Positions 9,518-48,720 of a stretch of 64,000 nucleotides of DNA are shown piece after piece. Source of the stretch: Nocardioides pocheonensis (lineage in GTDB: Bacteria > Actinomycetota > Actinomycetes > Propionibacteriales > Nocardioidaceae); NCBI RefSeq assembly GCF_003725535.1, contig NZ_RJSF01000040.1, positions 489,407 through 553,406 on the forward strand, read 5' to 3'. Each line of letters opens with the position of its first letter. The stretch's first letter is position 1. The notes below the pieces were generated by a model. That model worked only from the letters and a program-made list of their open reading frames with translations. It did no database searches and was not told where the DNA came from. The position numbers and the translations under genes were made by a program.

Positions 9518-9548
9518 CTGCCGCAGACCCCAGCGACGATCACACGGG

Positions 9549-32900: not shown

Positions 32901-33533
32901 CTCGCCGAGGTCTACACCGCATGGGGTGGCTTCGCCTACGGCCGTGGTCTCGACGGCGCCCCGGCGGCTGACGACATGCGCGCCAGCTACCGGCGCATCA
33001 AGGTGGCCGCGAAGAACGTCGACACCCGCGAACACGACATCGCGGACTCCGACGACTACTTCCAGTACCACGGCGGCATGGTCGCGACCGTGCGTGCCCT
33101 GACCGGGACGGACCCCCGCGCGTACGTCGGTGACTCCACGTCGCCCGACGCCGTACGCACGCGGACCCTGCAGGAGGAGACCAACCGCGTCTTCCGTGCC
33201 CGGGTGGCCAATCCGCGCTGGATCGGTGCGATGCAGCGGCACGGCTACAAGGGCGCCTTCGAGCTTGCGGCGACCGTCGACTACCTCTTCGGCTTCGACG
33301 CCACCACCGGCGTGGTGCACGACTGGATGTACGAGACCCTCGCTCGCGAGTACGTCCTCGACGAGACCAACCAGGCCTTCATGCGCCGGTCGAACCCGTG
33401 GGCCCTGCGGGGCATCGTCGAGCGGCTGCACGAGGCGGCCGACCGGGGTCTCTGGGCCGAGCCCGACCCCGAGGTGGTGGCGGCGATGCAGCAGGTCTAC
33501 CTGGAGCTCGAGGGCGACCTGGAGGACCGGTGA
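29940..33533 (+). CDS. cobN: Cobaltochelatase subunit CobN
   Basis: A 1197-aa large subunit of the aerobic ATP-dependent cobaltochelatase, which inserts cobalt into hydrogenobyrinic acid a,c-diamide. Family landmarks include LVIGRILGSPYDLCEGFARI, KVALVLSAYPTKHARVGNAVGLDTP, AVVHLGKHGSLEWLPGKNAALS, LPLIYPFLVNDPGEGAQAKRRAHA, IYHDPDLAPSHHYLAAYRW and TNRVFRARVANPRWIGAMQRHGYKGAFELAATVDYLFGFDATTG. GTG 29940 follows GAGGAGGA. It overlaps cobF by 4 nt. Its ATPase partners are not CobS/CobT but probably the ChlI/ChlD-like fusion at 38903-40906, as in other actinobacteria. Confidence 0.97.
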   Translation: MRIALLSTSDTDLLSARASGADYVWANPSRPGHQSMAETIDGADLVIGRILGSPYDLCEGFARIRGSRMPVVMLGGEQQPSAELMELSTVPMGVAAEAHRYLAEGGPANLAQLHAFLSDTVLLTGEGFEPPAEIPAWGVLGRPDADPDKLRVGVLFYRAHQASGNNAFAHALADAVDATGLAVGVPIFSSSLRAAPDDLYAELGTLDALVVTVLAAGGSVPASASAGGDDESWDIARMAALDIPILQGLCLTSSRDEWAASDDGVTPLDSASQIAIPEFDGRIITVPFSFKEIDEDGLPRYVADPERCARVAAIAVNHARLRALPPAQRKVALVLSAYPTKHARVGNAVGLDTPVSAIRLLRRMRAEGYDLGAPGDIPGLDEPDDTIAGDTLIHALIAAGGQDEEWLTSAQLDGSHVRIAAEDYRRWTAELPARLMDQVVAAWGPAPGSLFVNGRREIVLATLRAGNIVLLIQPPRGFGENPVAIYHDPDLAPSHHYLAAYRWLESPVEGGGFGAHAVVHLGKHGSLEWLPGKNAALSAGCATDAAIGSLPLIYPFLVNDPGEGAQAKRRAHATIVDHLVPPMARAETYGDIARLEQLLDEHAQIASMDPAKLPAVRGEIWTLMHAAEMHRDLGLDERPGDEEFDDFLLHVDGWLCEIKDAQIRDGLHVLGQPPAGEARVNLVLAILRAAQVWGGESASVPGLRAALGLKEGAEPTTAVDEIERQARELVERMEALDWDPAAAGDLHDDPEVCRVLAFAATQVVPRLGRTTDELDALLHALGGGFVPAGPSGSPLRGLVNVLPTGRNFYTVDPRAVPSRLAWQTGQAMAESLIRRYLDDTGDYPSSVGLSVWGTSAMRTSGDDVAEVLALLGVRPEWDEASRRVRELTVIPLDELGRPRIDVTVRISGFFRDAFPHVVAMLDDAVRLVAGLDEPDDQNFVRAHARADLAEHGDERRATTRIFGSKPGSYGAGILQLVESGSWRDDNDLAEVYTAWGGFAYGRGLDGAPAADDMRASYRRIKVAAKNVDTREHDIADSDDYFQYHGGMVATVRALTGTDPRAYVGDSTSPDAVRTRTLQEETNRVFRARVANPRWIGAMQRHGYKGAFELAATVDYLFGFDATTGVVHDWMYETLAREYVLDETNQAFMRRSNPWALRGIVERLHEAADRGLWAEPDPEVVAAMQQVYLELEGDLEDR

Positions 33534-34249
33534 GGCGGGTCCGCGTCGTCGGCATCGGGATGGGCCCGCAGCACGTCACCGCCGAGGCAGCTGAGGCCCT
33601 GCGCTCGCTCGACCGGGTGCTGGCGTTCGGGAAGGGCGAGGACGACCCGCTGCTGGCGATCCGGGCCGAGGTGTGCCGCCAGTACGGCGATCCGCCGCTC
33701 GTCCACGTCCCCGACCCGCCGCGCGACCGGGTCGATCCGGAGGACTACCCGGCCGCCGTGCGCACCTGGCACGCGGCTCGGGTCGCCGCTCTCCGGTCGG
33801 CAATCGACGAGCGACCCGGAGTGGTCGGGATGCTGGTCTGGGGCGACCCGTCGCTCTACGACTCGACGCTGCGGCTGCTCGACGCGCTCGACGACGTCGC
33901 CTACGACGTGGTGCCGGGCATCTCCGCGCCCCAGCTGCTCGCCGCCCGCCACCGGGTCGTGCTGCACGGGATCGGCGAGCCCGTGCACCTGACGACCGGG
34001 AGACGGCTCGGCGAGGCGATCGCCGCCGGACACGACAATGTGCTCGCGATGCTCAACCGCGACGTCGATCTGACCGGACTCGAGGAGTGGCAGATCTGGT
34101 GGGGCGCGAACCTGGGAGCCCCCGGCGAACAGCTCGTCAGCGGTCGGGTCGGCGACGTGGCCGACGAGATCGGCACCGCACGGGAGCGGGCCCGCTCCGC
34201 CGACGGCTGGATGATGGACCTCTTCCTGCTGCGGCGGACCCCGCGATGA
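33530..34249 (+). CDS. cobF: Precorrin-6A synthase (deacetylating) CobF
   Basis: A 239-aa SAM-dependent methyltransferase that methylates C-1 of precorrin-5 and releases acetate. The start RRVRVVGIGMGPQHVTAEAAEAL, the SAM-loop VGMLVWGDPSLYDST, and VVPGISAPQLLAARH with HGIGEPVHLTTGRRL are family landmarks. GTG 33530 overlaps the cobN stop as GTGA, so translation is coupled. CobF is specific to the aerobic pathway, which agrees with cobN, cobG and cobK here. Confidence 0.95.
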   Translation: MRRVRVVGIGMGPQHVTAEAAEALRSLDRVLAFGKGEDDPLLAIRAEVCRQYGDPPLVHVPDPPRDRVDPEDYPAAVRTWHAARVAALRSAIDERPGVVGMLVWGDPSLYDSTLRLLDALDDVAYDVVPGISAPQLLAARHRVVLHGIGEPVHLTTGRRLGEAIAAGHDNVLAMLNRDVDLTGLEEWQIWWGANLGAPGEQLVSGRVGDVADEIGTARERARSADGWMMDLFLLRRTPR

Positions 34250-35007
34250 GCGTCCTGCTGCTCGGCGGCACGTCGGAGGCTCGGGCGCTGGCCGCCGTAC
34301 TCGTGGAGACCGGGGTCCCGGTGCTCTCTTCGCTTGCCGGCCGGGTGGCTGGCCCCCGGTTGCCGGTCGGGGACGTGCGCATCGGTGGGTTCGGCGGAGT
34401 CGCCGGTCTCGTCGCACACCTGGCCACCGAAGGGCATGTCGCAGTCGTCGACGCGACCCATCCGTTCGCGACCGGCATGAGTGCCAACGCCGTCGCAGCG
34501 TGCGCGGCGGCCGGCGTGCCGCTGCTGCGGCTGGAGCGGCCTGGCTGGTCCGCGGCACCGGGTGCGGAGCTGTGGCACTGGGTCCCCGGGCACGACGAGG
34601 CAGCCACCGCGTCGGCTGTGCTCGGGAGGCGACCATTCCTCACCGTCGGGCGGCAGGCGCTCAGCTCCTTCGTGGGTCCCCTGGCCCACCGACACACGCT
34701 CGTCAGGGTCGTCGACGCCCCGGGCGTCGAGCTGCCGGCGACGTGGACCGTGCTGCGATCGAGAGGCCCCTACCGGCTGGAGGACGAGCTGTCACTGCTG
34801 CGCGCGCACGAGGTCGACGTGCTCGTCACGAAGGACTCAGGCGGTGACTACACGTGGCCCAAGATGGCGGCAGCCGCGGCTCTCGACATTCCGGTGGTCG
34901 TGGTGCGTCGTGACCAGCCCGACGGCGGCATCCCGACAGTGCCCGACGTCACGGCCGCCCTGGACTGGGTCCGGGCGCTCCTCGGCGCCGGGGGCGCAGA
35001 GCGATGA
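34246..35007 (+). CDS. cobK: Precorrin-6A reductase CobK
   Basis: A 253-aa protein: MSVLLLGGTSEARALAAVL is the NADPH-binding start, followed by VAVVDATHPFATGMSANAVAAC, LLRLERPGW, FLTVGRQALSSF and LVTKDSGGDYTWPKMAAA. The enzyme reduces precorrin-6A to dihydro-precorrin-6A. Its ATG overlaps the cobF stop (ATGA at 34246-34249). The last 59 nt overlap the 3' end of convergent cobD. Confidence 0.95.
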   Translation: MSVLLLGGTSEARALAAVLVETGVPVLSSLAGRVAGPRLPVGDVRIGGFGGVAGLVAHLATEGHVAVVDATHPFATGMSANAVAACAAAGVPLLRLERPGWSAAPGAELWHWVPGHDEAATASAVLGRRPFLTVGRQALSSFVGPLAHRHTLVRVVDAPGVELPATWTVLRSRGPYRLEDELSLLRAHEVDVLVTKDSGGDYTWPKMAAAAALDIPVVVVRRDQPDGGIPTVPDVTAALDWVRALLGAGGAER

Positions 35008-35914
35008 GGACTGCGATCGCCGTGGCTCCGGCCTCGACGGCGCGTGCCAGGGTGCGAGCTCGCGAGATGTCGTGACGCGCCGCAGGCCGCCCGCATCCGA
35101 GCACGTGCCGGTCCTCGACGCGGCCTGAGTAGGTGTTCTCGCCGCCGAGCCGAACCGCCAGGGCACCGGCGAACGCTGCCTCGACGGGCCCGGCGTTCGG
35201 GCTCGGATGCCCGGCGGCGTCCCGACGCCACGCGAGCAACGCCTCGTGCGGATCTCCGCCGACCACGGGCGCAAGGGCGGCCGCCAGCAGCGCCGCGACG
35301 CGCGAGCCCGGCAGGTTGACCAGGTCGTCGAGACGAGCCGCCGCCCAGCCGAACCGCTCGTAGCGCTCGTCGCGGTGGCCGACCATCGCGTCGAGCGTGT
35401 TGACCGCGCGGTACCCCAGCAGCGCCGGGATGCCGCCCACCGCCCCGAGTACCAGTGGCGCGACCACCGCGTCCGAGGTGTTCTCGGCGACCGACTCGAT
35501 CACCGCGCGGGCGACCTCGCCCTCGTCGAGGCGGCGGGTGTCGCGACCGACGAGATGGGTCAGCCGCACCCGTGCGTCCGGAAGCCGGTCGTCGGCCAGC
35601 AGCCGGTCGACAGCGGCCGCTTCGCGGTCCAGGGAGGTGCCGCCGAGCACGGCCCAGGTCGCGATCGCCGTCGCCAGGGCGTGCGGCACCGGCCGCTTGC
35701 GGGTGGCGCGCTCGATCGCCGCTCCGGCCAACGCGGTTGTACCGACGAGCACAGTGACGTGAAGGGCGCCGGCGCTGCGATCGTCGGCGTACGTTCGGTG
35801 CTCGAGGGTCCCGGCCAGCCGGCCGAACCCCGCAACCGGGTGGAAGCGGGCGGGGTCGGCGAGCAGTCGGTCGGCCGCGCAGCCGAGGCCCAGGCCCAGC
35901 GCGCGGCTCAGCAC
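34949..35914 (-). CDS. cobD: Adenosylcobinamide-phosphate synthase CobD/CbiB
   Basis: A 321-aa integral membrane protein. ADRLLADPARFHPVAGFGRLAGTLE, VARAVIESVAENTSDAVVAPLVLGAVGGIPALLGYRAVNTLDAMVGHRDERYERFGWAAARLDDLVNL and AGHPSPNAGPVEAAFAGALAVRLGG are the conserved blocks. With ATP it attaches aminopropanol (or its phosphate) to adenosylcobyric acid. GTG start at 35914, 15 nt after the cobBC stop. It is the last gene of the riboswitch-controlled minus-strand operon, and its 3' end overlaps cobK by 59 nt. Confidence 0.93.
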   Translation of the reverse strand: MLSRALGLGLGCAADRLLADPARFHPVAGFGRLAGTLEHRTYADDRSAGALHVTVLVGTTALAGAAIERATRKRPVPHALATAIATWAVLGGTSLDREAAAVDRLLADDRLPDARVRLTHLVGRDTRRLDEGEVARAVIESVAENTSDAVVAPLVLGAVGGIPALLGYRAVNTLDAMVGHRDERYERFGWAAARLDDLVNLPGSRVAALLAAALAPVVGGDPHEALLAWRRDAAGHPSPNAGPVEAAFAGALAVRLGGENTYSGRVEDRHVLGCGRPAARHDISRARTLARAVEAGATAIAVLIALRPRRRGAPGPSPGRP

Positions 35915-35929: not shown

Positions 35930-38275
35930 TCACGCATCGGCGGTCAGGGCCTCGAGGAGCCGGGTCGTCGTGGTCTCGTCGCGGACGGCGATCCGCACCC
36001 AGGATTCGTCGAGACCGGGGAACGTGTCGGCACGGCGTACGGCGATGCCGTGGTCGCGCAACCGGGCGTGCACTCCCGCGCCCACCCGGGCCAGCACGAA
36101 CGCCGTCGAGGACGGAATGTGCGTGATGGCGAGCTTTCGCAAACCGGCCTCGAGGATGCGGCGCCGGTCGCCGATCTCGCTGGTGCGGCGCTGGGCCTCG
36201 GTCGCTGCCGACGGATCCGCACAGGCGACCATCGCGGCGACCGCCGCCGTGCTCACCGACCAGGGAGGCTGCAGCGCGCGCAGGCCCGCGACGACGTCGG
36301 CGTCGGCCAGCAGGTAGCCGGCGCGGACGCCGGGGATCCCCCAGTGCTTGGTGAGGCTGCGCACCACGACGAGCCCGGGCTCGGCGTGCTCGACCAGCGA
36401 CTCGGACTCCCCGGCGACGGCGTCCATGAATGCCTCGTCGACGACCACCAGGCGGCCCGGGCGGAGCAGCTCCTTGAGGGCGGCGGCCGGGTGCAGGACG
36501 CCGGTCGGGTTCGTGGGGTTGCCGACCACGACCAGGTCGGCCTGCTCGGGGACCGCATCGGGGTCGAGCGCGAAGCCGGTGTCCGCAGGGCAGCGCACCT
36601 CGAGCACGCGACGACCGGCCTGGAGCAGCGCGGTGTGCGGCTCGGTGAACTGCGGGTGCACCACGACGGGGCACTGCCAGTCACGCAGGCGGGCGACCAG
36701 AGAGAACGCTTCCGCCGCACCGGCGGTGGGGAGCACCTCGGCGGCGGATCGCCCGTGCCGGCGCCCGATCGCCTCGGCTGCGGGTCGTGCGTCCGGGTAG
36801 CGGCCGACGTCCTCGAGGCTTCCACGGAGGGCCTCGTCGAGCCAGGCCGGCGGCGGGCCGGCGTACACGTTCACGGCGAAGTCGAGCAGGCCCGCGGTCG
36901 CCTCCGTGTCGCCGTGGTGTCGCAGGGTCTCGGCTCTGGACGCGGTGGCGTGCACGGCGTCGGCGAAGCGCTGCGCCAGCCAGGGGTGGCCGACCCAGTG
37001 CGTGTGCAGGTACGACGCGTGCAGCGTCGCCGAGGCGAACCCGGAGGGGACGCCGTCGATCAACCAGGCCGGTGTGGGTCCGGCCTCGGGCGCCGTCGCG
37101 GTCCGGTGGAACTCGTGGCCGGTGACCTCTTCGTCCTTCCGGGTCAGCAGCGAGTCGGACGCGGCGATGGCGACGGGGTAGCGCAGTGTGAGCCGCTCGG
37201 TCATGGCCGCGGTGGCCGGCAGCGCGCCGACCATTGGGTGGCCGTCGACCTGCTCGGCGAGGTAGAGCAGTCCGGCGCACTCGGCCACCGTCGGTGTGCC
37301 CGCGGACAGCGCCGCGGCGAGGTCCGCGCGAAGCGACGTGTTGGCAGTGAGCTCGTGGGCGTGCACCTCCGGGAAGCCGCCCCCGAGGTAGATCCCGGCG
37401 GTGTCCTCGGGCAGCCGCGTGTCGGTCAGCGGGTCGAAGGTGACCACGTCGCACCCGGCGGCGCGGAGCAGCTCCTCGGTCTCGGCGTACCGGAAGGTGA
37501 AGGCGCGGCCGCCGGCCATGGCGACGACCGGTCGCCGTTCGCTGGGCGCGCTGACCTGGTGCGCCGGGTCCCATGGCTCGACGTCGATCGCCGGCGCGGA
37601 CGTCGCGATCCGGAGCAGCTGCTCGAGGTCGACCAGCTCGGCGATCCGGTCGGCCAGTCGGTCCAGGTCGGCACCGGCGCGGTCGCGCTCGGCCGCGGGG
37701 ACCAGCCCGAGGTGCCGCGACGGCGTCGCGAACGAGGTGTCCCGGTCGATCACGCCGAGCACCGGCAGGTCGATCGCGCCGGCCGCCTCGGCGGCGTGAC
37801 GGGCGGAGCCGGCCTTGTTCAGGATGACGCCGGCGATCTCGACCGACGGGTCGAAGGTGGTCATGCCGTGGACCACGGCGCCGACGGACCGCGAGGCCAT
37901 CGCGATGTCGACCACGAGGACCACGGGACTCGACGTGAGCGTCGCCACGTGCGCGGTGGACGCAAAGCCGTTGCCGCCGATGCGCCCGTCGAAGAGGCCC
38001 ATCACGCCCTCGATGACGGCAACGTCGGCGCCGCGGGCTCCGTGCAGCAGCAGCGGAGCGACGCGCTCCTCGCCGACGAGGTGCGGGTCGAGGTTGCGCC
38101 CCGGTCGCCCGGTGGCGAGCGCGTGGTAGCCCGGGTCTATGTAGTCCGGGCCGACCTTGTGCCCGCTGACCTCGAGGCCGGTACGGCGCAACGCGGCCAT
38201 CAGGCCGGTCGCGATCGTGGTCTTGCCCTGTCCCGACGAGGGCGCGGCGATCACGAGGCGGGGGAGTGCGGTCAC
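35930..38275 (-). CDS. cobB: Fusion of cobyrinate a,c-diamide synthase (CobB) and threonine-phosphate decarboxylase-like CobC
   Basis: A 781-aa two-domain protein. Residues 1 to about 440 are CobB/CbiA: P-loop LVIAAPSSGQGKTT, KVGPDYIDPGYHALATGRPGRNLDP, VAVIEGVMGLFDG, and the glutaminase-like half with GIYLGGGFPEVHAHELTAN and the Cys in TVAECAGLLYLAEQ. Residues from about 455 are a class-I aminotransferase domain (LDFAVNVYAGPPPAWLDEAL, VVVGNPTNPTGVLHP, VVDEAFMDAVAG, VVRSLTKHWGIPGVRAGYLLA) with PLP Lys in SLTKHWG. This is CobC/CobD-type L-threonine-O-3-phosphate decarboxylase. The frame starts with TTG at 38299, but GTG 38275 gives the usual N-terminus. Confidence 0.92.
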   Translation of the reverse strand: MTALPRLVIAAPSSGQGKTTIATGLMAALRRTGLEVSGHKVGPDYIDPGYHALATGRPGRNLDPHLVGEERVAPLLLHGARGADVAVIEGVMGLFDGRIGGNGFASTAHVATLTSSPVVLVVDIAMASRSVGAVVHGMTTFDPSVEIAGVILNKAGSARHAAEAAGAIDLPVLGVIDRDTSFATPSRHLGLVPAAERDRAGADLDRLADRIAELVDLEQLLRIATSAPAIDVEPWDPAHQVSAPSERRPVVAMAGGRAFTFRYAETEELLRAAGCDVVTFDPLTDTRLPEDTAGIYLGGGFPEVHAHELTANTSLRADLAAALSAGTPTVAECAGLLYLAEQVDGHPMVGALPATAAMTERLTLRYPVAIAASDSLLTRKDEEVTGHEFHRTATAPEAGPTPAWLIDGVPSGFASATLHASYLHTHWVGHPWLAQRFADAVHATASRAETLRHHGDTEATAGLLDFAVNVYAGPPPAWLDEALRGSLEDVGRYPDARPAAEAIGRRHGRSAAEVLPTAGAAEAFSLVARLRDWQCPVVVHPQFTEPHTALLQAGRRVLEVRCPADTGFALDPDAVPEQADLVVVGNPTNPTGVLHPAAALKELLRPGRLVVVDEAFMDAVAGESESLVEHAEPGLVVVRSLTKHWGIPGVRAGYLLADADVVAGLRALQPPWSVSTAAVAAMVACADPSAATEAQRRTSEIGDRRRILEAGLRKLAITHIPSSTAFVLARVGAGVHARLRDHGIAVRRADTFPGLDESWVRIAVRDETTTTRLLEALTADA

Positions 38276-38288
38276 GGACGGACCGGTC

Positions 38289-38903
38289 TCACCACTCAAT
38301 GCCCCGCTGGCCCTTCTGCCCGGCGTCCATCGGATGCTTGAGCTTGGTCATCTCGGTGACCAGGTCGGACACCTCGACCAGGCGAGGGTCGGCACGGCGG
38401 CCGGTGACCACGACGTACTGACGGCCGGGCCGGTTCGCCAGGGTCTCCACGACGTCGTCGACGTCGACCCAGCCCCACTGCATCGGGTAGGTGAACTCGT
38501 CGAGCACCAGGAGGTCATGGGTCTCGTCGGCCAGCCGGCGCTTCACCTCGGCCCAGCCCTCCGCAGCCTCGGCGGCGTGGTCCTCCTCGCCGCCCGCCTT
38601 GCGCGACCACGACCAGCCGGCGCCCATCTTGTGCCACTCGACGGGACCGCCCTCGCCGGTCTCGTCGTGCAGGCGGCCGAGGCGCTCGAGCACGGTCTGC
38701 TCGCCGATCCGCCACTTGGCGGACTTCACGAACTGGAAGACACCGATGTTCCAGCCCTGGTTCCACGCCCGGATCGCGAGTCCGAAGGCGGCGGTGGACT
38801 TTCCCTTCCCGTCGCCGGTGTGCACCATCAGCAGTGGCCGGTTGCGACGCTCCCGCGTGGTCAGGCCGTCGTCGGGAACGGTGAGTGGCTGGCCCTGGGG
38901 CAT
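38289..38903 (-). CDS. cobO: Cob(I)yrinic acid a,c-diamide adenosyltransferase CobO
   Basis: A 204-aa BtuR/CobO/CobP-type ATP:corrinoid adenosyltransferase. Walker A is HTGDGKGKSTAAFGLA (residues about 29-44). Later motifs are GVFQFVKSAKWRIGEQ, LLVLDEFTYPMQWGWVD (Walker B) and YVVVTGRRADPRLVEVSDLVTEM. It transfers the adenosyl group to cobalt. ATG 38903 overlaps the chelatase stop by one base (TGATG). The stop lies 14 nt before the preferred start of cobBC, so these genes are tightly coupled. Confidence 0.96.
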   Translation of the reverse strand: MPQGQPLTVPDDGLTTRERRNRPLLMVHTGDGKGKSTAAFGLAIRAWNQGWNIGVFQFVKSAKWRIGEQTVLERLGRLHDETGEGGPVEWHKMGAGWSWSRKAGGEEDHAAEAAEGWAEVKRRLADETHDLLVLDEFTYPMQWGWVDVDDVVETLANRPGRQYVVVTGRRADPRLVEVSDLVTEMTKLKHPMDAGQKGQRGIEW

Positions 38904-40906
38904 CAGGCTGCTCCTTGTCGGATCGATCGCTGGACGGTCCCGGTCAGCGCGTCGGCGCTGACCTCGGCGAGCGGGAGGTACTCCGCGGCGAGGTCGTCGG
39001 CCAGGTGGCGGGCCAAGCCGAGACGCAGGGCACCGGTCTCGCAGTCGACGAGCACCGTGGTGACGCCGCGCGCGGCGAGCAGAGCCGCTGCCCGGCGCGA
39101 CCGCGCAACGGCGTCCGGTCCCGCGGTGGCGCGCCCGTCGGTGACCAGCACCAGCAGCGGGCGTCGGCGCGGGTCGCGGATGCGCTCGAGGTCGAGCACG
39201 CGGGTGACTTCGAGGAGTCCTTCCGCGAGCGGCGTGCGGCCGCCCGCAGGCAGGTCTCGCAAGCGTCTCGCGGCGACGTCGACCGAGCCGGTCGGAGGCA
39301 GCGCGAGCTCGGCACCGGTGCCGCGGAACGTCACCAGGCCGACCTTGTCGCGGCGCTGGTAGGCGTCGAGCAGCAGCGACAGCACGGCGGTCTTCACCTG
39401 CTCCATCCGCGTGCGCGCCGCCATCGAGCCGGACGCGTCGACGCAGAAGAGGACGAGGTTGGACTCCCGACCCTCGCGGACGGCGACCCGGAGGTCCTCA
39501 CCCCGGAAGCGGATCGGCCCGGATTCGCGACCGCGACCGCGCTGGTGCGGCGCCGCGGCACGTAGCGTCTCGGTGAGGTGCGGCGCGCCGAACCGGTCGA
39601 CCGGGCGCGCGGCGCCGACGCGGCGACCGCTCGCGGTGAGCGCACGGCTGCGCCGGCCGGCCTCTCCGGCACCGACGCCCGACACCGCGAGCAGTCGGGT
39701 CCGGTACGTCGCTCCCGGGGTCGCCGGAGTGCCCGGGGCCGATCGCCCCGCAGACTGCGCGGACTGGCCCGCGGCCGGATCGACCTCGGTCGCGTCGGCC
39801 TCGGAACGATCGCCGTGGGCGGACTCGCCGGGGCTGTCCGATCCCCCGCCCGGGCCCGGATCGGGATCGGGGTCCGGCTCGTCGTCGCCGAGGATCTCGG
39901 CGAGCAGGTCGTCGTCGAGGCCCGGCGCGTCGAACGGGTTGCGGCGGCGCCGGTGGGGCAGCGCCAGCCTGGCCGCTGCGCGGATGTCGTCGGTGGTCAC
40001 CTCGGACCGCTCGTGCCAGGCGGCATGGGCGACGGCGGTCCGGGCCATGACGATGTCGGCGCGCATCCCGTCGACCTCGAGCGCGGCACAGATCTCGGCG
40101 ATCCGGAGCAGCGCGACGTCGGAGAGCTCGACCTGGTCGACGAGCTTCTGTGCCGCCAGGATCCGGTCGGTCAGTGCGCGCTCGTCCTCGGCGTACGACG
40201 CCACGAAGGCGTCCGGATCCGCGTCGAAGGCCATCCGACGCCGGACCACCTCGACCCGCAGGGCCGGGTCCCGCGGCGCGGCCACCTCGACGGTCAGGCC
40301 GAACCGGTCGAGCAGCTGCGGGCGCAGCTCGCCCTCCTCGGGGTTCATCGTGCCGACCATGACGAAGCGGGCGGCGTGCTCGACGGAGACGCCGTCGCGC
40401 TCGACGGTCGATCGGCCCATCGCGGCCGCGTCGAGGAGTACGTCGACCAGGTGGTCGTGCAGCAGGTTCACCTCGTCGACGTACAGGATGCCGCGGTGGG
40501 CGCGGGCCAGCAGGCCGGGCTCGTACTCGGTGCGACCTTCGGACAGCGCGCGCTCCAGGTGCAGCGACCCCAGCACCCGGTCCTCGGTGGCGCCGACCGG
40601 CAGCTCGACCAGCCGCACAGGTCGTGTCTCGCTCGCCGCGTCGGCGGCGAAGGGACCGTCGGGTGACAGCGGGGCGGGGTCGCGGGGATCGCTGGAGAAC
40701 CGGTCGCCGGCGATCACCTCGATCGGCGGCAGCACGGCCGCCAGCGCGCGGACGATGGTGGACTTCGCGGTGCCCTTCTCGCCCCGCACCAGCACGCCGC
40801 CGACCTCGGGGGAGATCGTCGTGAGGATCAGGGCCAGCGCCATGGGGTTCGAGTCCAACCCCGCGTCGGACCCGACGACGGCACTGAAGGGGAAGTGCTT
40901 CGGCAT
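38903..40906 (-). CDS. ChlI/ChlD-type chelatase AAA+ - VWA fusion (putative cobaltochelatase ATPase subunits)
   Basis: A 667-aa protein. Residues 1-330 are a magnesium-chelatase BchI-like AAA+ module: Walker A LVRGEKGTAKSTIVRAL (near 40), Walker B GILYVDEVNLLHDHLVDVLLDAA, sensor FVMVGTMNPEEGELRPQLLDRFGL. A long Asp/Pro/Gly-rich linker follows (DDEPDPDPDPGPGGG). Then comes a C-terminal VWA domain with MIDAS DASGSMAARTRM near residue 489 and LVTDGRATAG. In actinobacteria lacking CobS/CobT, this fusion is the likely partner of CobN for cobalt insertion; that role is inferred from context. It is the first gene of the riboswitch-2 operon, ATG 40906. Confidence 0.88.
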   Translation of the reverse strand: MPKHFPFSAVVGSDAGLDSNPMALALILTTISPEVGGVLVRGEKGTAKSTIVRALAAVLPPIEVIAGDRFSSDPRDPAPLSPDGPFAADAASETRPVRLVELPVGATEDRVLGSLHLERALSEGRTEYEPGLLARAHRGILYVDEVNLLHDHLVDVLLDAAAMGRSTVERDGVSVEHAARFVMVGTMNPEEGELRPQLLDRFGLTVEVAAPRDPALRVEVVRRRMAFDADPDAFVASYAEDERALTDRILAAQKLVDQVELSDVALLRIAEICAALEVDGMRADIVMARTAVAHAAWHERSEVTTDDIRAAARLALPHRRRRNPFDAPGLDDDLLAEILGDDEPDPDPDPGPGGGSDSPGESAHGDRSEADATEVDPAAGQSAQSAGRSAPGTPATPGATYRTRLLAVSGVGAGEAGRRSRALTASGRRVGAARPVDRFGAPHLTETLRAAAPHQRGRGRESGPIRFRGEDLRVAVREGRESNLVLFCVDASGSMAARTRMEQVKTAVLSLLLDAYQRRDKVGLVTFRGTGAELALPPTGSVDVAARRLRDLPAGGRTPLAEGLLEVTRVLDLERIRDPRRRPLLVLVTDGRATAGPDAVARSRRAAALLAARGVTTVLVDCETGALRLGLARHLADDLAAEYLPLAEVSADALTGTVQRSIRQGAA

Positions 40907-40941
40907 GTGAGGCTCCCGCTCGTCAGCCAGCGAATACGTTG

Positions 40942-41082
40942 GCGCGAGGCCGGTCTTCGGACTTCCAGGATCATGCGTCCTGGTTACCGCAGCGGGCCTG
41001 TGCCGGACTTTCACCGGCTTCCCAGATTCTCCCGTCGGTCCGCTGTGCGAGCCGGACCTCGGGGCACCTCGTGCCTGTCGCG
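40942..41082 (-). promoter_or_regulatory. Cobalamin riboswitch controlling the chelatase-cobO-cobBC-cobD operon
   Basis: On the minus strand the leader reads GGGAAGCCGGTGAAAGTCCGG, then GCCCGCTGCGGTAACC (the B12-box region, with a GCGGTAACC variant). The conserved AGTCCGAAGACCGGCC follows at 40963-40948. All elements are in the right order upstream of ATG 40906. Extent of the outer stem is approximate. Confidence 0.9.
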
Positions 41083-41087
41083 GGTCA

Positions 41088-41096
41088 CGATAGCGT
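41088..41096. promoter_or_regulatory. Overlapping divergent -10 boxes between the chelatase operon and cobL
   Basis: TATCGT on the minus strand (41093-41088) is placed to start the riboswitch leader. TAGCGT on the plus strand (41091-41096) lies 8 nt before the cobL ATG at 41105, implying a leaderless or nearly leaderless cobL transcript. The two hexamers share three base pairs, so polymerase could not occupy both at once. Assignment is by position and sequence only. Confidence 0.45.
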
Positions 41097-41104
41097 CTGC
41101 GCCC

Positions 41105-42322
41105 ATGACCAGCAGCGGCCGTCCGAGGATCACGGTCGTCGGCATCGGCGCCGACGGCTGGAACGGCCTGCCCGAGGCGGTCCGCACGATCGTCGAGGGT
41201 GCGCCCGTGCTCCTCGGCGGCCGCCGGCACCTCGGCATGGTGCCGCCGGTCGCGGGCCAGCGTCGTGAGCGTTGGCCGTCGCCGCTGCGCGCCGGCGTGG
41301 CGGACCTCCTCGACCGGCATGGCGATGTCCCGGTGGTGGCGCTGGCCTCCGGCGACCCGCTGCTCTCGGGAGTCGGTACGACGCTCGTCGAGTTGCTCGG
41401 CGCCGACGCGGTCGACGTGGTCCCGGCGATCTCCTCGGTCGCTCTCGCGCGTGCCCGGATGGGGTGGGCGGCCGAGTCCAGTGACGTGCTCACGCTGGTC
41501 GGCCGCGACGCGGAGCTGCTCGTCCGCGAGCTCGCCCCCGAGCGACGGCTGCTGGTGCTCTCCTCGGACGAGTCGACGCCGGCGCGGGTCGCCCGGCTCC
41601 TGACGGCTCGCGGATACTCCGAGAGCCGGATGACGGTGCTGGGCGACCTCGGCTCCCCCGAGGAGACCCGGGTCGAGGGGACGGCCGGCACCTGGAGCGC
41701 CACCGTGTCGCGGCTGCACGTGCTCGCCCTCGACCTGTCGGGTCCCGTGGTCGGCTCGTGGACCGCGGGGCTGCCGGACTCGGCGTACGAGCACGACGGC
41801 CAGCTGACCAGGCGCGACCTGCGCGCCTCGGCCCTCGCCCGGCTCGCCCCGCAGCCGGGGCAGCTGCTCTGGGACATCGGCGCCGGAGCCGGCTCGGTCG
41901 GCATCGAGTGGATGCGTGCCCACCCGACCTGCCGTGCCGTGGCGATCGAAGCCGACGCGACCCGCGCAGCCCGGATCACCCGCAACGCGGTGACGCTCGG
42001 TGTGCCGGGGCTCGACGTGGTCGAGGGACGCGCCCCAGAGGCGCTCACCGACCTGCCCGCCCCGGACGCGGTCTTCGTCGGCGGCGGGGCCACGACGCCG
42101 GGCCTTCTCGGGCTCTGCCTCGCCGCGCTGCGGTCGGGCGGACGGCTCGTCGTGCACGGCGTGACGCTCGAGACCGAGTCGCTCCTGGCAAGGGCGTACG
42201 CCGACCACGGCGGCGAGCTGACCAGGATCGCGGTCGAGTCAGCCGCCCCTCTCGGCTCCTTCACCGGCTGGACCCCGGCCCGTGCCGTGATCCAGTGGGC
42301 CATGACGAAGGAACAGCCATGA
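41105..42322 (+). CDS. cobL: Precorrin-6Y C5,15-methyltransferase (decarboxylating) CobL
   Basis: A 405-aa CbiE-CbiT fusion. The N-terminal half (ITVVGIGADGWNGLPEAVRTIVEGAPVLLGGRRHLGM, VVALASGDPLLSGVGTTL) is the CbiE tetrapyrrole methylase. The C-terminal half (LLWDIGAGAGSVGIEWMRAHPTCRAVAIEADATRAARI) is the CbiT Rossmann-fold methyltransferase with the SAM-binding GAGAGS. It methylates C-5 and C-15 of precorrin-6B and decarboxylates the acetate side chain. There is no riboswitch on this side; the promoter box is 8 nt upstream. The ATG of cobM overlaps its stop. Confidence 0.95.
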   Translation: MTSSGRPRITVVGIGADGWNGLPEAVRTIVEGAPVLLGGRRHLGMVPPVAGQRRERWPSPLRAGVADLLDRHGDVPVVALASGDPLLSGVGTTLVELLGADAVDVVPAISSVALARARMGWAAESSDVLTLVGRDAELLVRELAPERRLLVLSSDESTPARVARLLTARGYSESRMTVLGDLGSPEETRVEGTAGTWSATVSRLHVLALDLSGPVVGSWTAGLPDSAYEHDGQLTRRDLRASALARLAPQPGQLLWDIGAGAGSVGIEWMRAHPTCRAVAIEADATRAARITRNAVTLGVPGLDVVEGRAPEALTDLPAPDAVFVGGGATTPGLLGLCLAALRSGGRLVVHGVTLETESLLARAYADHGGELTRIAVESAAPLGSFTGWTPARAVIQWAMTKEQP

Positions 42323-43071
42323 CCGTCCACTTCGTCGGCGCCGGACCGGGCGCGGCCGACCTGATCACCCTGCGCGCCGCGGCGATGCTCTCCGCCGCGG
42401 ACGTGGTGCTCTACCCGGGCACCTACCTCGACACCGAGGTGCTCGGCCACTGCCATCAGAGCGCCCGGATCGTCGACACCCAGCACCTCGACCTCGACCA
42501 GATCGTCGACGAGCTCGCGACCGCGCACGGCGCCGGGCACGACGTGGTGCGACTGACCTCGGGAGACCCCTCGCTGTACTCCGCCGTGGCCGAGCAGACC
42601 CGGCGCCTCGACGAGCTCGGGATCGACTGGGACGTCACGCCCGGCGTGCCGGCGTACGCGGCTGCGGCGGCGATCGTCGGGCGCGAGCTCACCGTCCCCC
42701 TGGTGTCCCAGTCCGTCGTCCTGACCCGCGTCCGGGCCCGCTCCACGGCGATGCCGGCGACCGAGGCACTGGCCGGCTTCGCGGCAACCCACGCCACCCT
42801 GGCGCTGCATCTCGCCATCACTCGCACCCGTGAGGTGATGGCTGAGCTGGAAACCGAGTACGGCGCGGACTGCCCGGTCGTCGTCGTCCACCGGGCCTCC
42901 CAGCCAGAGCAGCTCGTGCTTCGGGGCACTGTTGCCGAGATCGCCGACCAGGTCGAGGCGGCCGAGCTGCGCCAGGCCGCGATCATCCTCGTCGGGCGCG
43001 CACTGGACCCCGGCGCCGGAGGCGAGTCCTACCTCTACGACCCGACCCGCAACCGCACCCTCAAGGGCTGA
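42319..43071 (+). CDS. cobM: Precorrin-4 C11-methyltransferase CobM
   Basis: A 250-aa tetrapyrrole methylase. MTVHFVGAGPGAADLITLRAAAMLSAADVVLYPGTYLD, VVRLTSGDPSLYSAVAEQTRRL, VTPGVPAYAAAAAIVGRELTVP and ATLALHLAI are conserved CobM/CbiF blocks. It methylates C-11 of precorrin-4 with SAM. It is coupled to cobL by ATGA at 42319-42322 and converges on cobIJ with an 11-nt 3' overlap. Confidence 0.95.
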   Translation: MTVHFVGAGPGAADLITLRAAAMLSAADVVLYPGTYLDTEVLGHCHQSARIVDTQHLDLDQIVDELATAHGAGHDVVRLTSGDPSLYSAVAEQTRRLDELGIDWDVTPGVPAYAAAAAIVGRELTVPLVSQSVVLTRVRARSTAMPATEALAGFAATHATLALHLAITRTREVMAELETEYGADCPVVVVHRASQPEQLVLRGTVAEIADQVEAAELRQAAIILVGRALDPGAGGESYLYDPTRNRTLKG

Positions 43072-44563
43072 CGAATCGCGCGGTCCACACCCGGCCCGCT
43101 TCGGTCACCCGGGTGTGGGACGAGCCGACGATCAGCAGGCACTTCATGTCGATCGAGCCCGCGTCGAGATCGGCGAGCGTGGTCGCGACCAGCGACTCCT
43201 CGGCCCGGCCGACGTCCCTGCCGACAACCACCACGCGGTCGGCCGGCAGGATCTCGAGGAGCAGCTTCTGCGCCCGCACGACCTGTTCGGTCCGGGTGCG
43301 CGACGCCGGGTTGTAGATCGCCAGCACCAGGTCGGCCTCGGCGATCGCGCGCAGGCGCTGCTCCACCACCGGCCACGGCTTGAGCCGGTCGGACAGGCTG
43401 ACCACCGCGAAGTCACCGCCGATCGGCGCTCCCGCCCGCGCAGCGACGGCCTGGACGGCACTGACCCCGGGCAGCACCCGGACCGGCACATCGGCGTACT
43501 CGGCGGCTGCCTCGAAGACGGCGGCCGCCATGCCGAACACCCCGGCGTCACCACCCGACACGACGGCGACACGCTCGCCGGCACGGGCCAGCTCGAGGGC
43601 GTGCCGTGCTCGGTCGACCTCGACGGTGTTGCCCGAGGCGTGGCGGGTGAGGCCGGCGCGCTGGGGCACCCGGTCGACGTACGGCGCATATCCGACGACG
43701 TGGTCGACCTCTGCCAGTGCGGCCGCGACCTCGGGGGTGAGCCAACGGTCCGGGCCGGGCCCGAGCCCGACGACGAGCAGCTCGCCGGGCCGGCCGGTCG
43801 GGCGCGGCGTCGGCACCGGTGCCCGGCGGCCGGTGGGCTCGTCCTGGACCGAGTCCCCGGGCACGACGACCAGCGAGAAGTAGGGCACCGAGGTCGGGTC
43901 CACGTCAGCCACGGGCAGCCACCGCTCGGCAGGCATCGAGGCGCGCTCGACGTACATCGCGTGCTCCAGCCGACCCGCCTGGCGGAGCGCCTCGACGACC
44001 CCGGGGAAGCGGCGGCCGAGCTTCATGATGATCGCCCCGTCGGTGTCGGCCAGGCGCCGGGTCAGTTCGGGCACGGTCAGGGTGCCGGGAAGCACGGTGA
44101 GGACGTCGGTCTGCCGCACCAGGGGCGCGGCAAGGACGGCCGTCGCCGCAGCGAACGCCGGTACGCCGGGCACCACCTCGGTGGGGAACCGGTCGGAGAG
44201 TCGGTCGTGCAGGTACATGAACGATCCGTAGAACAGCGGGTCGCCCTCGGCGAGAACCACGACGTCGCGGCCCGCCTCCAGGTGCGTTGCCAGACGCGAC
44301 GCGCACTCTTCGTAGAACTCGGTGATCAGACCGGCGTACCCGCCCGGGTGGTCGGTGCTGCCCGTGGTGATCGGGTAGCGCAACTCCTCCTCGACCGCGC
44401 TGTCCGGGATCAGGGAGGCGGCGATCCGGCGGGCGTTGGACTCCTTGCCCACGCCGGCGTGGAAGGCGATCACGTCGGCCGACTCGATCAGCCGGGCCGC
44501 CTTGCGCGTGATCAGCTCCGGGTCGCCGGGGCCGAGTCCGACCCCGTAGAGGTGTCCGGTCAC
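43061..44563 (-). CDS. cobJ: Fusion of precorrin-2 C20-methyltransferase (CobI) and precorrin-3B C17-methyltransferase (CobJ)
   Basis: A 500-aa protein with two tetrapyrrole-methylase domains. Residues 1-240 are CobI (MTGHLYGVGLGPGDPELITRKAARLI, VVVLAEGDPLFYGSFMYL, VVPGVPAFAAATAVL). Residues from about 262 are CobJ (LLVVGLGPGPDRWLTPEVAAALAEVDHVVGYAPYVDRV, VAVVSGGDAGVFGMAAAVFEAA, LPGVSAVQAVAARAGAPIGGDFAVVSLSDRLKPW). The enzyme makes precorrin-3A and, after CobG action, precorrin-4. It overlaps cobH by 4 nt in the riboswitch-3 operon. CobIJ fusions are common in actinobacteria. Confidence 0.95.
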   Translation of the reverse strand: MTGHLYGVGLGPGDPELITRKAARLIESADVIAFHAGVGKESNARRIAASLIPDSAVEEELRYPITTGSTDHPGGYAGLITEFYEECASRLATHLEAGRDVVVLAEGDPLFYGSFMYLHDRLSDRFPTEVVPGVPAFAAATAVLAAPLVRQTDVLTVLPGTLTVPELTRRLADTDGAIIMKLGRRFPGVVEALRQAGRLEHAMYVERASMPAERWLPVADVDPTSVPYFSLVVVPGDSVQDEPTGRRAPVPTPRPTGRPGELLVVGLGPGPDRWLTPEVAAALAEVDHVVGYAPYVDRVPQRAGLTRHASGNTVEVDRARHALELARAGERVAVVSGGDAGVFGMAAAVFEAAAEYADVPVRVLPGVSAVQAVAARAGAPIGGDFAVVSLSDRLKPWPVVEQRLRAIAEADLVLAIYNPASRTRTEQVVRAQKLLLEILPADRVVVVGRDVGRAEESLVATTLADLDAGSIDMKCLLIVGSSHTRVTEAGRVWTARFVSP

Positions 44564-45219
44564 TCTTCCTCCTGGGCGAGGGCGTTGAGGGCCGAGGCGG
44601 TCATCGCTGAGCCGCCGCGCCGTCCACGGACGGTCAGGAACGGGATGTCCAGACCGTGGTCGTCGGCCAGCGCCGCGAGTGCCTCCTTGGACTCAGCGGC
44701 CCCGATGAAACCGACTGGACAGCCGATGATCGCCGCCGGCCGCGGGGCACCGTCGAGGAGCATCTCGAGGAGGTGGAACAACGCGGTCGGTGCGTTGCCG
44801 ATGGCGACCACGGCCCCTTCGAGCATCGGCTCCCACAGGGACACCGCGGCCGCGGAGCGGGTGGTGGCCCAGTCGCGGGCGAGCACGACGGCACGCGGGT
44901 CGCGGAGGGTGCAGACCACGTCGTTGTCCCGGGGCAGCCGGGCTCGTGTGACGCCCGAGGCGACCATGTGTGCGTCGACGAGGACAGGGGCTCCGCTCTG
45001 GAGGGCGGTGCGGGCAGCCTTGACGAGCCCGGGATGAACGACGAGGTCGCGGGCCAGGTCGATCTGCCCGGTGCCGTGCACCATGCGGACCACGACCCGT
45101 TCGGCGTCGGCGGGCAAAGAGGTGAGGTCGGTCTCGCGGCGGATGGTCGCGAACGAGTCGCGGTAGATCGCCGGACCGTCGGCCTCGTAGGGATAGCGCC
45201 GGGTCGGGGGCGCGTTCAT
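44560..45219 (-). CDS. cobH: Precorrin-8X methylmutase CobH
   Basis: A 219-aa protein. RRYPYEADGPAIYRDSFATIRRETDL, VVRMVHGTGQIDLARDLVVHPG (catalytic His in VHGTG), LVDAHMVASGVTRARLP, AAIIGCPVGFIGAAESKEAL and PFLTVRGRRGGSAMTASALNAL are all conserved. It moves the methyl group from C-11 to C-12, giving hydrogenobyrinic acid. Its ATG overlaps the cobG stop (ATGA at 45216-45219), and its stop overlaps the cobIJ start. Confidence 0.96.
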   Translation of the reverse strand: MNAPPTRRYPYEADGPAIYRDSFATIRRETDLTSLPADAERVVVRMVHGTGQIDLARDLVVHPGLVKAARTALQSGAPVLVDAHMVASGVTRARLPRDNDVVCTLRDPRAVVLARDWATTRSAAAVSLWEPMLEGAVVAIGNAPTALFHLLEMLLDGAPRPAAIIGCPVGFIGAAESKEALAALADDHGLDIPFLTVRGRRGGSAMTASALNALAQEEE

Positions 45220-46067
45220 GTCGGCACCACGACTCCGCGCCAGGGCGTGATCACGAGCTCGGTCTCGCTACCGGCGAGCTCGGTGACGAGGGCTGGTGTG
45301 AGCACTCCCTCGGGTACGGCGACGTGCTCGGCGCCAGGATGGGATCCGAAGCCCAGCGGCGGCCCCGGCTCAGGCAGGCGCGGGTCGGGTGCGACCTGCC
45401 GACCCAGGGGAGTGGCCAGCTCGGCCACGTGCCACGGTGCTCCCGCGCCGGTTCCCCGCGCGGCGAGGAACTCACGGGCGAGGGACGCGAGCGCCTGGGA
45501 CGAATCGTCCAGCGAGACCACCGGTCCGAAGGCCGCACCGATTCTGAGCTGCGCAGACCGTCCGTCGAGCGCGACCAGGCCGAGATCCTGCTCACGGGTC
45601 AGGAGGTCGCCGCGGCCGTCGTCGAGAGCGAACAGGAACCGGCCGGGCAGGTCCCCGAGACCGGGGTCGGCCAGGAGTGCGGCGTCCAGGGACGCGGCCA
45701 CCAGCCGCAGGTCGGCACGCCCGCCCGCGATCCCGGTCAGCGGCGACACCAGCACGTTGCGCGCGAGGTCGTGAGGACGCGAGGGCAGCAGCCCGGTGTT
45801 CTCGATCGCAGCCACGACCGTCGTCGACAGGGAGCCGCTGTCGAGCGGAAGGGCGCGCAGCTGCAGGTTGGCCCGCGCGGTCAGGTGCAGGTCCCCGTCG
45901 CCGTACTCCTCAGCCACCCCGCTCAGTGCGACGAGCGAGGTCGACGAGATCCGTCCACCGACGAGACGCACCCGGACCAGGCCGCCGTCCGCGGCCGGCC
46001 ACGGGCGGAGGACGCCGGGGCAGCGGTCGCGTCGGGTCCGCGTCGGGCGGGTGCGGAGAGGAGCCAC
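45216..46067 (-). CDS. cobG: Precorrin-3B synthase-like CobG, short form lacking Fe-S cysteines
   Basis: A 283-aa protein. The start RRDRCPGVLRPWPAADGGLVRVRLVGGRIS, then LHLTARANLQLRALP, ARNVLVSPLTGIAGGRADLR and DLPGRFLFALDDGRGDLLTREQDLGLVAL are the ferredoxin-like sulfite/nitrite-reductase half of CobG. It ends at ELVITPWRGVVVPT, the point where longer actinobacterial CobG proteins continue into the region with the 4Fe-4S cysteines. The protein holds a single Cys (residue 16). CobG hydroxylates precorrin-3A with O2 using an Fe-S centre, so activity of this form is doubtful or unusual. The stop is embedded in the cobH start. It is preceded by riboswitch 3. Confidence 0.82.
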   Translation of the reverse strand: MAPLRTRPTRTRRDRCPGVLRPWPAADGGLVRVRLVGGRISSTSLVALSGVAEEYGDGDLHLTARANLQLRALPLDSGSLSTTVVAAIENTGLLPSRPHDLARNVLVSPLTGIAGGRADLRLVAASLDAALLADPGLGDLPGRFLFALDDGRGDLLTREQDLGLVALDGRSAQLRIGAAFGPVVSLDDSSQALASLAREFLAARGTGAGAPWHVAELATPLGRQVAPDPRLPEPGPPLGFGSHPGAEHVAVPEGVLTPALVTELAGSETELVITPWRGVVVPT

Positions 46068-46137
46068 GCGAGGTTCCTTCGAGGTCTGGGGCTCGTGCGC
46101 GAAGCCCGCGGGTGACCCGACGGCGGTTGCCGCAAGG

Positions 46138-46222
46138 GCCAGCAGGTCTTCGGACTCGGGACAGGTCCCATACCGCTGCGCGTCAGTCCCGGACTCTCAC
46201 CGGGTTCCCACTGCTGGCGTGC
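46138..46222 (-). promoter_or_regulatory. Cobalamin riboswitch controlling cobG-cobH-cobIJ
   Basis: On the minus strand GGGAACCCGGTGAGAGTCCGG is followed by GCGCAGCGGTATGGG and then AGTCCGAAGACCTG at 46156-46143. This is the ordered core of a B12 riboswitch. A -10-like TAGCCT on the minus strand (46230-46225) would start the leader. CobG begins at 46067. Confidence 0.9.
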
Positions 46223-46265
46223 GCAGGCTACCAAGCCGGCGCGGACGACGAACGTCGAGGACTCC

Positions 46266-46279: not shown

Positions 46280-47968
46280 ATGACCTGGAACCGGCCTGTC
46301 CCGCTGATCGGCGATCGGACGTCGGCGGCCGAGCGCGCTGCCGAGGTCCGGGCGTGGGCGTTCCCCGAGGCCGAGCGGCAGGCGTTCTACGACGTGCTCC
46401 GGGAGCGGCGCGACATCCGCCGCTACCGGCCGGACGCGGTGCCGGACGACGTCCTCGACCGGGTGCTCACCGCGGCCCACGTCGCTCCGTCGGTGGGCCA
46501 CAGCCAGCCGTGGCGATTCATCGTCGTCGCCGATCCCGGCACCCGCGAGCGCGCCGCCCGGATGGCCGACGAGCAGCGCCTCCGCCAGGCGGCCCAGCTC
46601 GAGCCGGACGCGGCCCGGCGGCTGCTCGACCTCCAGCTGGAGGGCATCCGGGAGGCACCGCTGGGGATCGTCGTGACCTGCGACCGACGTACCTCCGCGG
46701 AGGGAGTGCTCGGGCGGGCGACGTTCCCCGACGCGGACCTGTGGTCGTGTGCCTGCGCGATCGAGAACCTCTGGCTGGCCGCCCGCGCCGAGGGACTCGG
46801 CGTCGGCTGGGTGACCTTGTTCGACCCGCTCGAGCTCGAGGCGCTCGTCGGTGTCCCCGACGGCGTGGTCACGCTCGGCTGGCTCTGCCTCGGCTGGCCC
46901 GACGAGCGGCCGCCCGAGCCTGGCCTGGAACGGGCCGGCTGGTCCCGTCGCCAGCCGGTGGGCGAGGTCGTGCTCCGAGAGCGGTGGAGCGAGGACACCG
47001 CGGCCCCGGTCTCGCACCTGCGCGCGCCCGACAGCCGGGAGGTCGTCGGCGCCCGCGACCGGGCCGATGCGCTGCTCACCACACCGGGGTCGCTCGGCAT
47101 CCTCGACCGGTACGTCGACCGGGTCGAGGCCGCGGCGGCGGCTCGTTCGGACCGCGCTCTCGCCGGGACACTGCTGCTCGTCGCCGGGCGGCATCCGGTC
47201 GTGGCTCACGGCGTCTCCGCCTACGGACCCAGCGTCACCGACGACGTGCTCGCCGCCTCCGACGTCGGCCAGTCCGCGGGCGCCGCTGCCGCGCGTGCGG
47301 CCGGCCTGACGTTCGCGGCTGTCGACGCGGGCTCCGCCACCGGTGACCTGGCGCACACCGACCCCCTCCCTGCCGAGGAGGTCGCCAGGCTGCTGGCGTG
47401 GGGCCGCGCACTCGGTGCCGAGGCAGCGGCCGAGCACGTACTGCTGGCACTCGGCGAGGTCGGCATCGGCAACACCACGGTCGCTGCGGCCCTTGCAGCG
47501 GGGCTTCTCGGGCTGTCGCCCGACGAAGCGGTCGGCCTCGGCGCCGGCGCCGACACGGCCATGGTGCAACGCAAGACCGCGGTGGTCGCGCAGGCGCTCG
47601 CCCGTGTCGGCTCGGGACCACTCACCCCCGAGCAGGCGCTCGCGGCCCTGGGCGGTCCGGAGTTCTGCGTGCTGGCGGGAGCCGTGCTGGGCGCTGCGGA
47701 GGCGCGAGCGGTCACCGTCCTCGACGGCCTGGCCACCTCCGTCGCCGGCCTCGTCGCGGTCCGGCTGGAGCCAGGTGCGGCGGCCTACCTCGTCGGTGGC
47801 CAGCGCAGCCGGGAGCGCGCGCACGAACGCGTGCTCGAGCACCTCGGCCTCGAGCCGCTGCTCGACGTGCGACTGCGCGCTGGGGAAGGCGTCGGCGCAG
47901 CCTTGGCCTCGGGCTTGTTGCTCAGCGCCCTGCAGGTACGCCGCACCATCGGTCGCACGTCTCCGTGA
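46280..47968 (+). CDS. Fusion of DMB synthase (BluB) and nicotinate-nucleotide:DMB phosphoribosyltransferase (CobT)
   Basis: A 562-aa protein. Residues 1-215 are BluB, a flavin-destroying nitroreductase-fold enzyme that makes 5,6-dimethylbenzimidazole from FMNH2 and O2: FYDVLRERRDIRRYRPDAVPDDVLDRVLTAAHVAPSVGHSQPWRFI, LWSCACAIENLWLAARAEGLGVGWVTLFD. Residues from about 260 are CobT (GTLLLVAGRHPVVAHGVSAYGPSVTDDVL, ALGEVGIGNTTVAAALAAGLLGL with catalytic Glu expected near the C-terminus, GGPEFCVLAGAVLGAA), which activates DMB to alpha-ribazole phosphate. Fusing both puts lower-ligand synthesis and activation in one chain. The start is supported by the -10 box spacing. Confidence 0.93.
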   Translation: MTWNRPVPLIGDRTSAAERAAEVRAWAFPEAERQAFYDVLRERRDIRRYRPDAVPDDVLDRVLTAAHVAPSVGHSQPWRFIVVADPGTRERAARMADEQRLRQAAQLEPDAARRLLDLQLEGIREAPLGIVVTCDRRTSAEGVLGRATFPDADLWSCACAIENLWLAARAEGLGVGWVTLFDPLELEALVGVPDGVVTLGWLCLGWPDERPPEPGLERAGWSRRQPVGEVVLRERWSEDTAAPVSHLRAPDSREVVGARDRADALLTTPGSLGILDRYVDRVEAAAAARSDRALAGTLLLVAGRHPVVAHGVSAYGPSVTDDVLAASDVGQSAGAAAARAAGLTFAAVDAGSATGDLAHTDPLPAEEVARLLAWGRALGAEAAAEHVLLALGEVGIGNTTVAAALAAGLLGLSPDEAVGLGAGADTAMVQRKTAVVAQALARVGSGPLTPEQALAALGGPEFCVLAGAVLGAAEARAVTVLDGLATSVAGLVAVRLEPGAAAYLVGGQRSRERAHERVLEHLGLEPLLDVRLRAGEGVGAALASGLLLSALQVRRTIGRTSP

Positions 47969-48586
47969 CGGTACCGAGGGCGGGCTGCTGCTCGTCCGGC
48001 ACGGCGAGTCCACCTGGAACCGCTCCCGCCGGGTCCAGGGCCAGACCGCCCACCCGCGCCTGACCCGGCGCGGCCGTGCCCAGGCCCGGGCGCTGGCCGC
48101 CACCCTCGGGCCGCTCGAGGTGACCCGGATCCTGACCTCGGACTGCGGCGCGCGACCCAGACGGCGGCCGTCCTCGGCATCACCGTGGGGATCACCCCGG
48201 AGCCGACGCCGCTGCTCCGCGAGCGCCACTGGGACGCGTGGCAGGGCCGCTCCCGATGTGCCGCCGAAGCACAGGCGCACACCCTCGCGCCCCACGAACG
48301 CCTCGCCGGCGGTGAGTCGGTCTGCGACGTGCGCGAGCGGGTGGAAGGCCTGCCGCGGCAGCTCGGCGATCAGATCGGGGTCGTCGTACTCGTCACGCAC
48401 GGCGACGTGATCGCGAGCCTGCTCGGCACCGAGGTTCCGTCGAACGCCTCGGTCCATCGCCTGTCTCTCGCACCCTGGGACACTCCGGCCCCTGCCGCCA
48501 CCCTGGTGCCGGAATGTGCAAGGGTGTGCCCACGTCGTAGTGCACGGGAAGCCGGTGAAATTCCGGCGTGGTCCTCGCCACTGTGA
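47965..48586 (+). pseudogene. Frameshifted histidine-phosphatase gene (alpha-ribazole phosphatase-like)
   Basis: The catalytic start LLLVRHGESTWNRSRRVQGQTAHPRLTRRGRAQARALA is in frame 3 of the window, up to ...VTRILTSDCG near 48148. The continuation ATQTAAVLGITVGITPEPTPLLRERHWDAWQGRS...GVVVLVTHGDVIASLLG is in another frame, which ends at 48586. The only proper start, GTG 47965 overlapping the bluB-cobT stop as GTGA, is in the third frame. At least two indels are therefore needed for a complete protein. Context suggests alpha-ribazole-5'-phosphate phosphatase. Its 3' end runs into the next riboswitch (the TGA lies in the GCCACTGTGA box). Confidence 0.72.
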
Positions 48587-48690: not shown

Positions 48691-48720
48691 TCCACGAGGC
48701 ATGGAAGGAAGGGTCATCTC

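Follow-up and report, generated by a model that had tools for sequence, protein, structure and literature searches.

In B12 synthesis CobG acts as a monooxygenase, hydroxylating C20 and forming a lactone, according to an excerpt of PMC7242693 that also cites work on the Fe-S centre and the non-heme iron of this enzyme. The same excerpt describes CobZ of Rhodobacter capsulatus as a quite distinct enzyme for the same step. Within open-licence PMC papers we found no description of a CobG without the cluster, no published activity for any short CobG, and no established B12 production by organisms that carry the short form. A CobG of this short kind is encoded in the window, the whole 64,000-nucleotide stretch of Nocardioides pocheonensis DNA analysed here.

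The short cobG gene encodes a protein of 283 amino acids with a single cysteine (Cys16), and its stop codon overlaps the start of cobH as ATGA. A frameshift concealing a longer C-terminus was ruled out by this overlap. The NCBIfam CobG model TIGR02435 aligned over model positions 1-297 of 388 (126.5 bits, E 1.3e-36), with homology in the N-terminal and middle domains, and the N-terminal three quarters of CobG can be aligned confidently with the short protein. Unlike CobG as defined by this model, however, the short form scored below the curated cut-off for the whole protein (234.8 bits). A Pfam search returned one ferredoxin-like half domain of nitrite/sulfite reductases at residues 30-76. The gene order cobG-cobH-cobIJ is shared with CobG, and the short gene stands before cobH and cobIJ within a cob operon of the aerobic pathway (Table 1).

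Table 1. Features of the cob region, with positions numbered within the window.
Feature	Position	Strand	Remarks
cobN	29940..33533	plus	over cut-off
cobF, precorrin-6A synthase	33545..34249	plus	aerobic-route marker; over cut-off
cobK, precorrin-6A reductase	34246..35007	plus	
cobD/cbiB	34949..35914	minus	
cobBC fusion	35930..38299	minus	
cobO, adenosyltransferase	38289..38903	minus	
ChlI/ChlD-type cobaltochelatase subunit	38903..40909	minus	
ORF with cobL (CbiE and CbiT domains)	40895..42322	plus	true start probably within the ORF
cobM, precorrin-4 C11-methyltransferase	42319..43071	plus	
cobIJ fusion, C20- and C17-methyltransferases	43061..44563	minus	steps before and after CobG
cobH, precorrin-8X methylmutase	44560..45219	minus	overlaps the cobG stop by ATGA
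short cobG	46067 (GTG start) to 45216 (TGA stop)	minus	CobG-like, 283 aa, cluster domain absent
cobalamin riboswitch upstream of short cobG	46255-46124	minus	RF00174, 54.2 bits
bluB-cobT fusion	46280..47968	plus	

Four cobalamin riboswitches were observed within this one cob region, two on the plus strand (29772-29912 and 48521-48694) and two on the minus strand (40931-41076 and 46124-46255). Past the bluB-cobT fusion, a histidine-phosphatase-like gene (47980-48500, plus strand) reads LVRHGESTWN and then HWDAWQG...VTHGD in another frame, with an apparent frameshift near 48150 that is either real or an assembly slip. A 373-aa protein (28559-29680, minus strand) lies divergent from cobN across a riboswitch and had no NCBIfam match; its motifs suggest a metallo-beta-lactamase fold.

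The window protein was aligned with five long CobGs from plasmid records (Streptantibioticus, Tsukamurella, Nonomuraea, Granulicella and Phaeobacter). All five continue after a TPWR motif with the cysteine pattern C-x5-C...C-x3-C, and the window protein ends just past the TPWR. In a larger alignment of 103 proteins (48 short and 55 long; rows L090 and L091 were removed before tree building as copies of L010 and L024), the four cluster cysteines were invariant in 55 of 55 long CobGs, and these columns held no cysteine in any of the 48 short forms. The short form differs from CobG in lacking the C-terminal domain with the four-cysteine 4Fe-4S motif. Cys16 sits in a CPG motif that is invariant across all 103 short and long proteins, and is thus no remnant of the cluster site. 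The first-pass annotation had stated that this CobG has one Cys, stops where longer CobGs go on into the Fe-S cysteine region, and joins cobH through ATGA; each of these statements was borne out, and the alignments placed no cluster ligands in the retained part. The CPG, TxRxNxQxR, RN..SP and TPW motifs of CobG are all present in the short form, with the TxRxNxQxR stretch and conserved arginines invariant across the 103-protein alignment.

A structural model of short CobG was predicted from 45 aligned sequences (mean pLDDT 92.6, pTM 0.89). Model residues 5-283 aligned to residues 21-385 of Mycobacterium tuberculosis NirA (Z 22.9, rmsd 3.6, 271 aligned), and the model aligned to residues 81-402 of the Escherichia coli sulfite reductase hemoprotein (SiRHP) with a Z of about 18-19, so that the end of short CobG is the equivalent of SiRHP 402 and NirA 385. 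The core fold over model residues 5-283 is common to these siroheme nitrite/sulfite reductases, but unlike short CobG they run on into a further cluster-binding part. As the model covers only SiRHP 81-402, it indicates that the cluster domain is absent while the fold core is kept; the end position and the single Cys likewise leave short CobG without the C-terminal cluster-binding domain of siroheme reductases. For this comparison we assume the positions of the SiRHP and NirA cluster ligands relative to the short CobG end. In a phmmer alignment the RN..P and LPgRf stretches matched those of a nitrite reductase, and from sulfite reductase work we presume that these stretches face the tetrapyrrole.

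Within the host family, the window protein found matches in 83 of 149 genomes (11 of 26 genera), nearly all of which end at query residue 280-283. Exceptions with partial or split matches were observed in genomes G046, G057, G062, G091, G102, G114, G143 and G146; of these, the split ones in G143 and G114 point to frameshifts in a few short cobG copies. Two short cobG copies on contig 1 of G143 (about 9465-10318 and 89807-90588) are each split over two frames, being duplicated and apparently frameshifted. A survey of the class (393 genomes), using a profile of five long and two short proteins with no short-form Trp pattern, gave short matches in further families among the matches listed. We also scanned genome contigs for named loci, with patterns that include the short-form Trp, and kept the best 80 of 235 loci. 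The cluster cysteines were missing in 80 of these 80 loci, a proportion that is biased to the short form by the scan pattern, while the breadth of its occurrence is unbiased. The best 80 of 235 belonged to Nocardioidaceae (42), Mycobacteriaceae (14), Nocardiopsidaceae (9), Dietziaceae (4), Streptomycetaceae (3) and Intrasporangiaceae (2), with one each in Propionibacteriaceae, Streptosporangiaceae, Gordoniaceae and Pseudonocardiaceae and two without a family placement; the short form is thus observed in named genomes of about ten actinobacterial families. Some loci appear to come from the same genome by their equal contig coordinates (L123 with L073, L155 with L023). The genome of Thermocrispum municipale (L157, G512) has a duplicated cob region, with two short CobGs ~25 kb apart and two CobFs ~20 kb apart.

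Among the best 80 of 235 named loci, 64 have ATGA or GTGA at the end of the short cobG frame, and in seven short CobG reads directly into CobH (L135, L139, L149, L155, L156, L165 and L172), these fusions being mostly from Nocardioides and once from Micropruina. Nei-Gojobori dN/dS values ranged from 0.18 to 0.47 in all 14 pairs tried, and on these sequence comparisons short CobG is under purifying selection. Named Mycolicibacter-type relatives were found by the named-locus scan to have short CobG, and we take these to be grouped with Mycobacterium terrae in Mycolicibacter. M. terrae JCM 12143 is among the strains assayed for B12 in an excerpt of PMC8192938, whose gene table, as excerpted, has a mostly blank column for M. 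terrae. As a possible short-form B12 producer this species is a lead only.

A quick tree of the shared part of the 48 short and 55 long CobGs placed the short forms inside CobG. Forty-four rows with five family labels, including the window protein, formed a main short clade (SH-aLRT 98), and four rows of a single family (f14) formed a separate one (SH-aLRT 99). A single clade of all 48 short forms was rejected on this quick tree (p-AU 0.026), and together these results suggest that the short form arose twice. At position 23, the residue after CPGxLxx, 51 of 55 long CobGs have His, in contrast to Trp in the short forms of both the main clade (44 of 44) and f14 (4 of 4). The main clade further differs from CobG in the additional His213 and His248, both present in 44 of 44 rows; neither is present in the four f14 rows. 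Because the same His-to-Trp change accompanies the same domain loss in both clades, residue 23 appears to be linked to the cluster, and the parallel change suggests that the two worked together.

A search of the full genome for a second CobG or a CobZ found neither. The other TIGR02435 matches were an assimilatory sulfite reductase with a cysH-like gene next to it (L001) and NirB (L003), names that rest on a reading of sequence and neighbours, and a profile of the lost domain retrieved just this sulfite reductase and NirB, even at E 10. With these two profiles no second full CobG was observed in the genome, and the lost-domain profile likewise ruled out a detached C-terminal domain elsewhere. 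An anaerobic route through CbiG was ruled out by the absence of the CbiG_C/CobE domain (PF01890) from the genome. CobF was over its cut-off here and in 15 of 15 named genomes, each of which has a short CobG and no long CobG. Further CobG-profile matches in these 15 genomes were sulfite-reductase-like, plus one 313-aa frame in Dietzia alimentaria (L137, G509; contig 17, 467658-468542), a CobG/sulfite-reductase-like match of 100 bits over profile positions 28-316. CobZ (TIGR02485), which shares its pathway step with CobG, reached at best 70.5 bits in the host genome against a cut-off of 372.55 and passed the cut-off in none of the 15 named genomes, the nearest being Nocardiopsis alba with 274.8 bits; CobZ was ruled out as a substitute on these scores, and the short-form genomes examined differ in this from R. 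capsulatus.

When the genes near 21 short and 20 long loci were clustered, the groups were the usual cob genes with no partner gene common to the short loci, and no 2[4Fe-4S] ferredoxin motif was observed in 101 short-form neighbourhoods, some of which are loci of the same genome. A conserved redox neighbour was ruled out on both counts. Looser ferredoxin patterns were set aside, as they were also observed in long-form loci (the commonest in 15 of 20) and look like shadow frames. MetH was over its cut-off in the host genome, while MetE gave only partial, weak matches within a 397-aa frame, so that the cell probably needs B12; the dependence on MetH could be satisfied by B12 uptake.

From the letters of the window, the first-pass annotation had offered three readings: a pathway broken at this step, hydroxylation by another enzyme, or a short form that works differently. 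The last fits best. A decaying remnant in a pathway broken at CobG would account for the missing cluster cysteines and for the split matches in a few relatives, but such decay is very improbable given the purifying selection seen in all 14 pairs, the spread over about ten families, the two origins, the upstream riboswitch with the cobH overlap, and a host genome with no MetE over cut-off. The wide conservation, the purifying selection and the CobH fusions together argue that short cobG is not a broken gene. As for another enzyme, CobZ is the known candidate and is unsupported in the host genome and in the 15 named genomes. An unrecognised oxygenase might instead make precorrin-3B, with short CobG acting as a tetrapyrrole binding or handover protein among CobI, CobJ and CobH. 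Channelling of this kind would fit the seven fused CobG-CobH loci among the best 80 of 235, and the cluster domain was lost twice; however, the clusters hold no conserved new gene, and neither the conserved arginines nor the TxRxNxQxR stretch varies, which along with the CobZ scores makes this role improbable.

Somewhat less improbable, though still unlikely, is a two-part enzyme in which short CobG is one half and a separate Fe-S protein (such as NirB, a ferredoxin or the sulfite reductase) would occupy the site of the lost domain and give the cluster in trans. The invariance of the cluster cysteines in all 55 long CobGs speaks for a need of this kind, and the sulfite reductase and NirB are both encoded in the host genome. 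Against it stand the absence of a stand-alone cluster domain from that genome, of the 2[4Fe-4S] motif from the 101 neighbourhoods, and of a conserved extra gene beside the 21 short loci as compared with the 20 long ones.

Since the short protein retains both the fold and the invariant residues on the substrate side, we read it as a working precorrin-3B synthase with an outside reductant. Alongside the observed domain loss, conservation, two origins, gene context and lack of known substitutes, we consider it probable (about 0.7) that short CobG is a complete, cluster-free enzyme fed electrons from outside, with an activity, a metal and a donor that we infer. In this reading the tetrapyrrole-cradling part of the sulfite-reductase-like fold is retained together with its invariant arginines, and the C-terminal domain, the site of the 4Fe-4S cluster in long CobG, is lost. 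Short CobG would most likely still hydroxylate precorrin-3A with O2 and form the lactone. The outside donor may be a general ferredoxin, a flavin or an NAD(P)H reductase, whose electrons would reach a mononuclear iron, or else the bound substrate, directly and not via a built-in cluster. Several points weigh against this reading: no published activity for a short CobG among the papers searched, a score under the curated CobG cut-off, no conserved redox partner in the neighbourhoods compared, a two-origin result from a quick tree at p-AU 0.026, the few copies that look frameshifted, and a MetH requirement that B12 uptake could cover. More speculatively, Actinobacteria may have twice evolved an Fe-S-free precorrin-3B synthase for O2 chemistry on a tetrapyrrole, in which the rewired site of the main clade (Trp23 for His, with the newly invariant His213 and His248) has another way of binding the iron or allows oxygen to be activated by the reduced tetrapyrrole itself.

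The conservation of a CobG with no cluster hints that the enzyme may be able to dispense with it, and how electrons are delivered for the use of O2 in a protein that lacks a cluster site becomes a question. The short form offers a smaller system for testing the role of each iron centre, and aerobic B12 production might be simpler with an enzyme that has no cluster. For annotation, a short form that falls under the curated CobG cut-off means that probable B12 makers may be scored as being without the precorrin-3B step.
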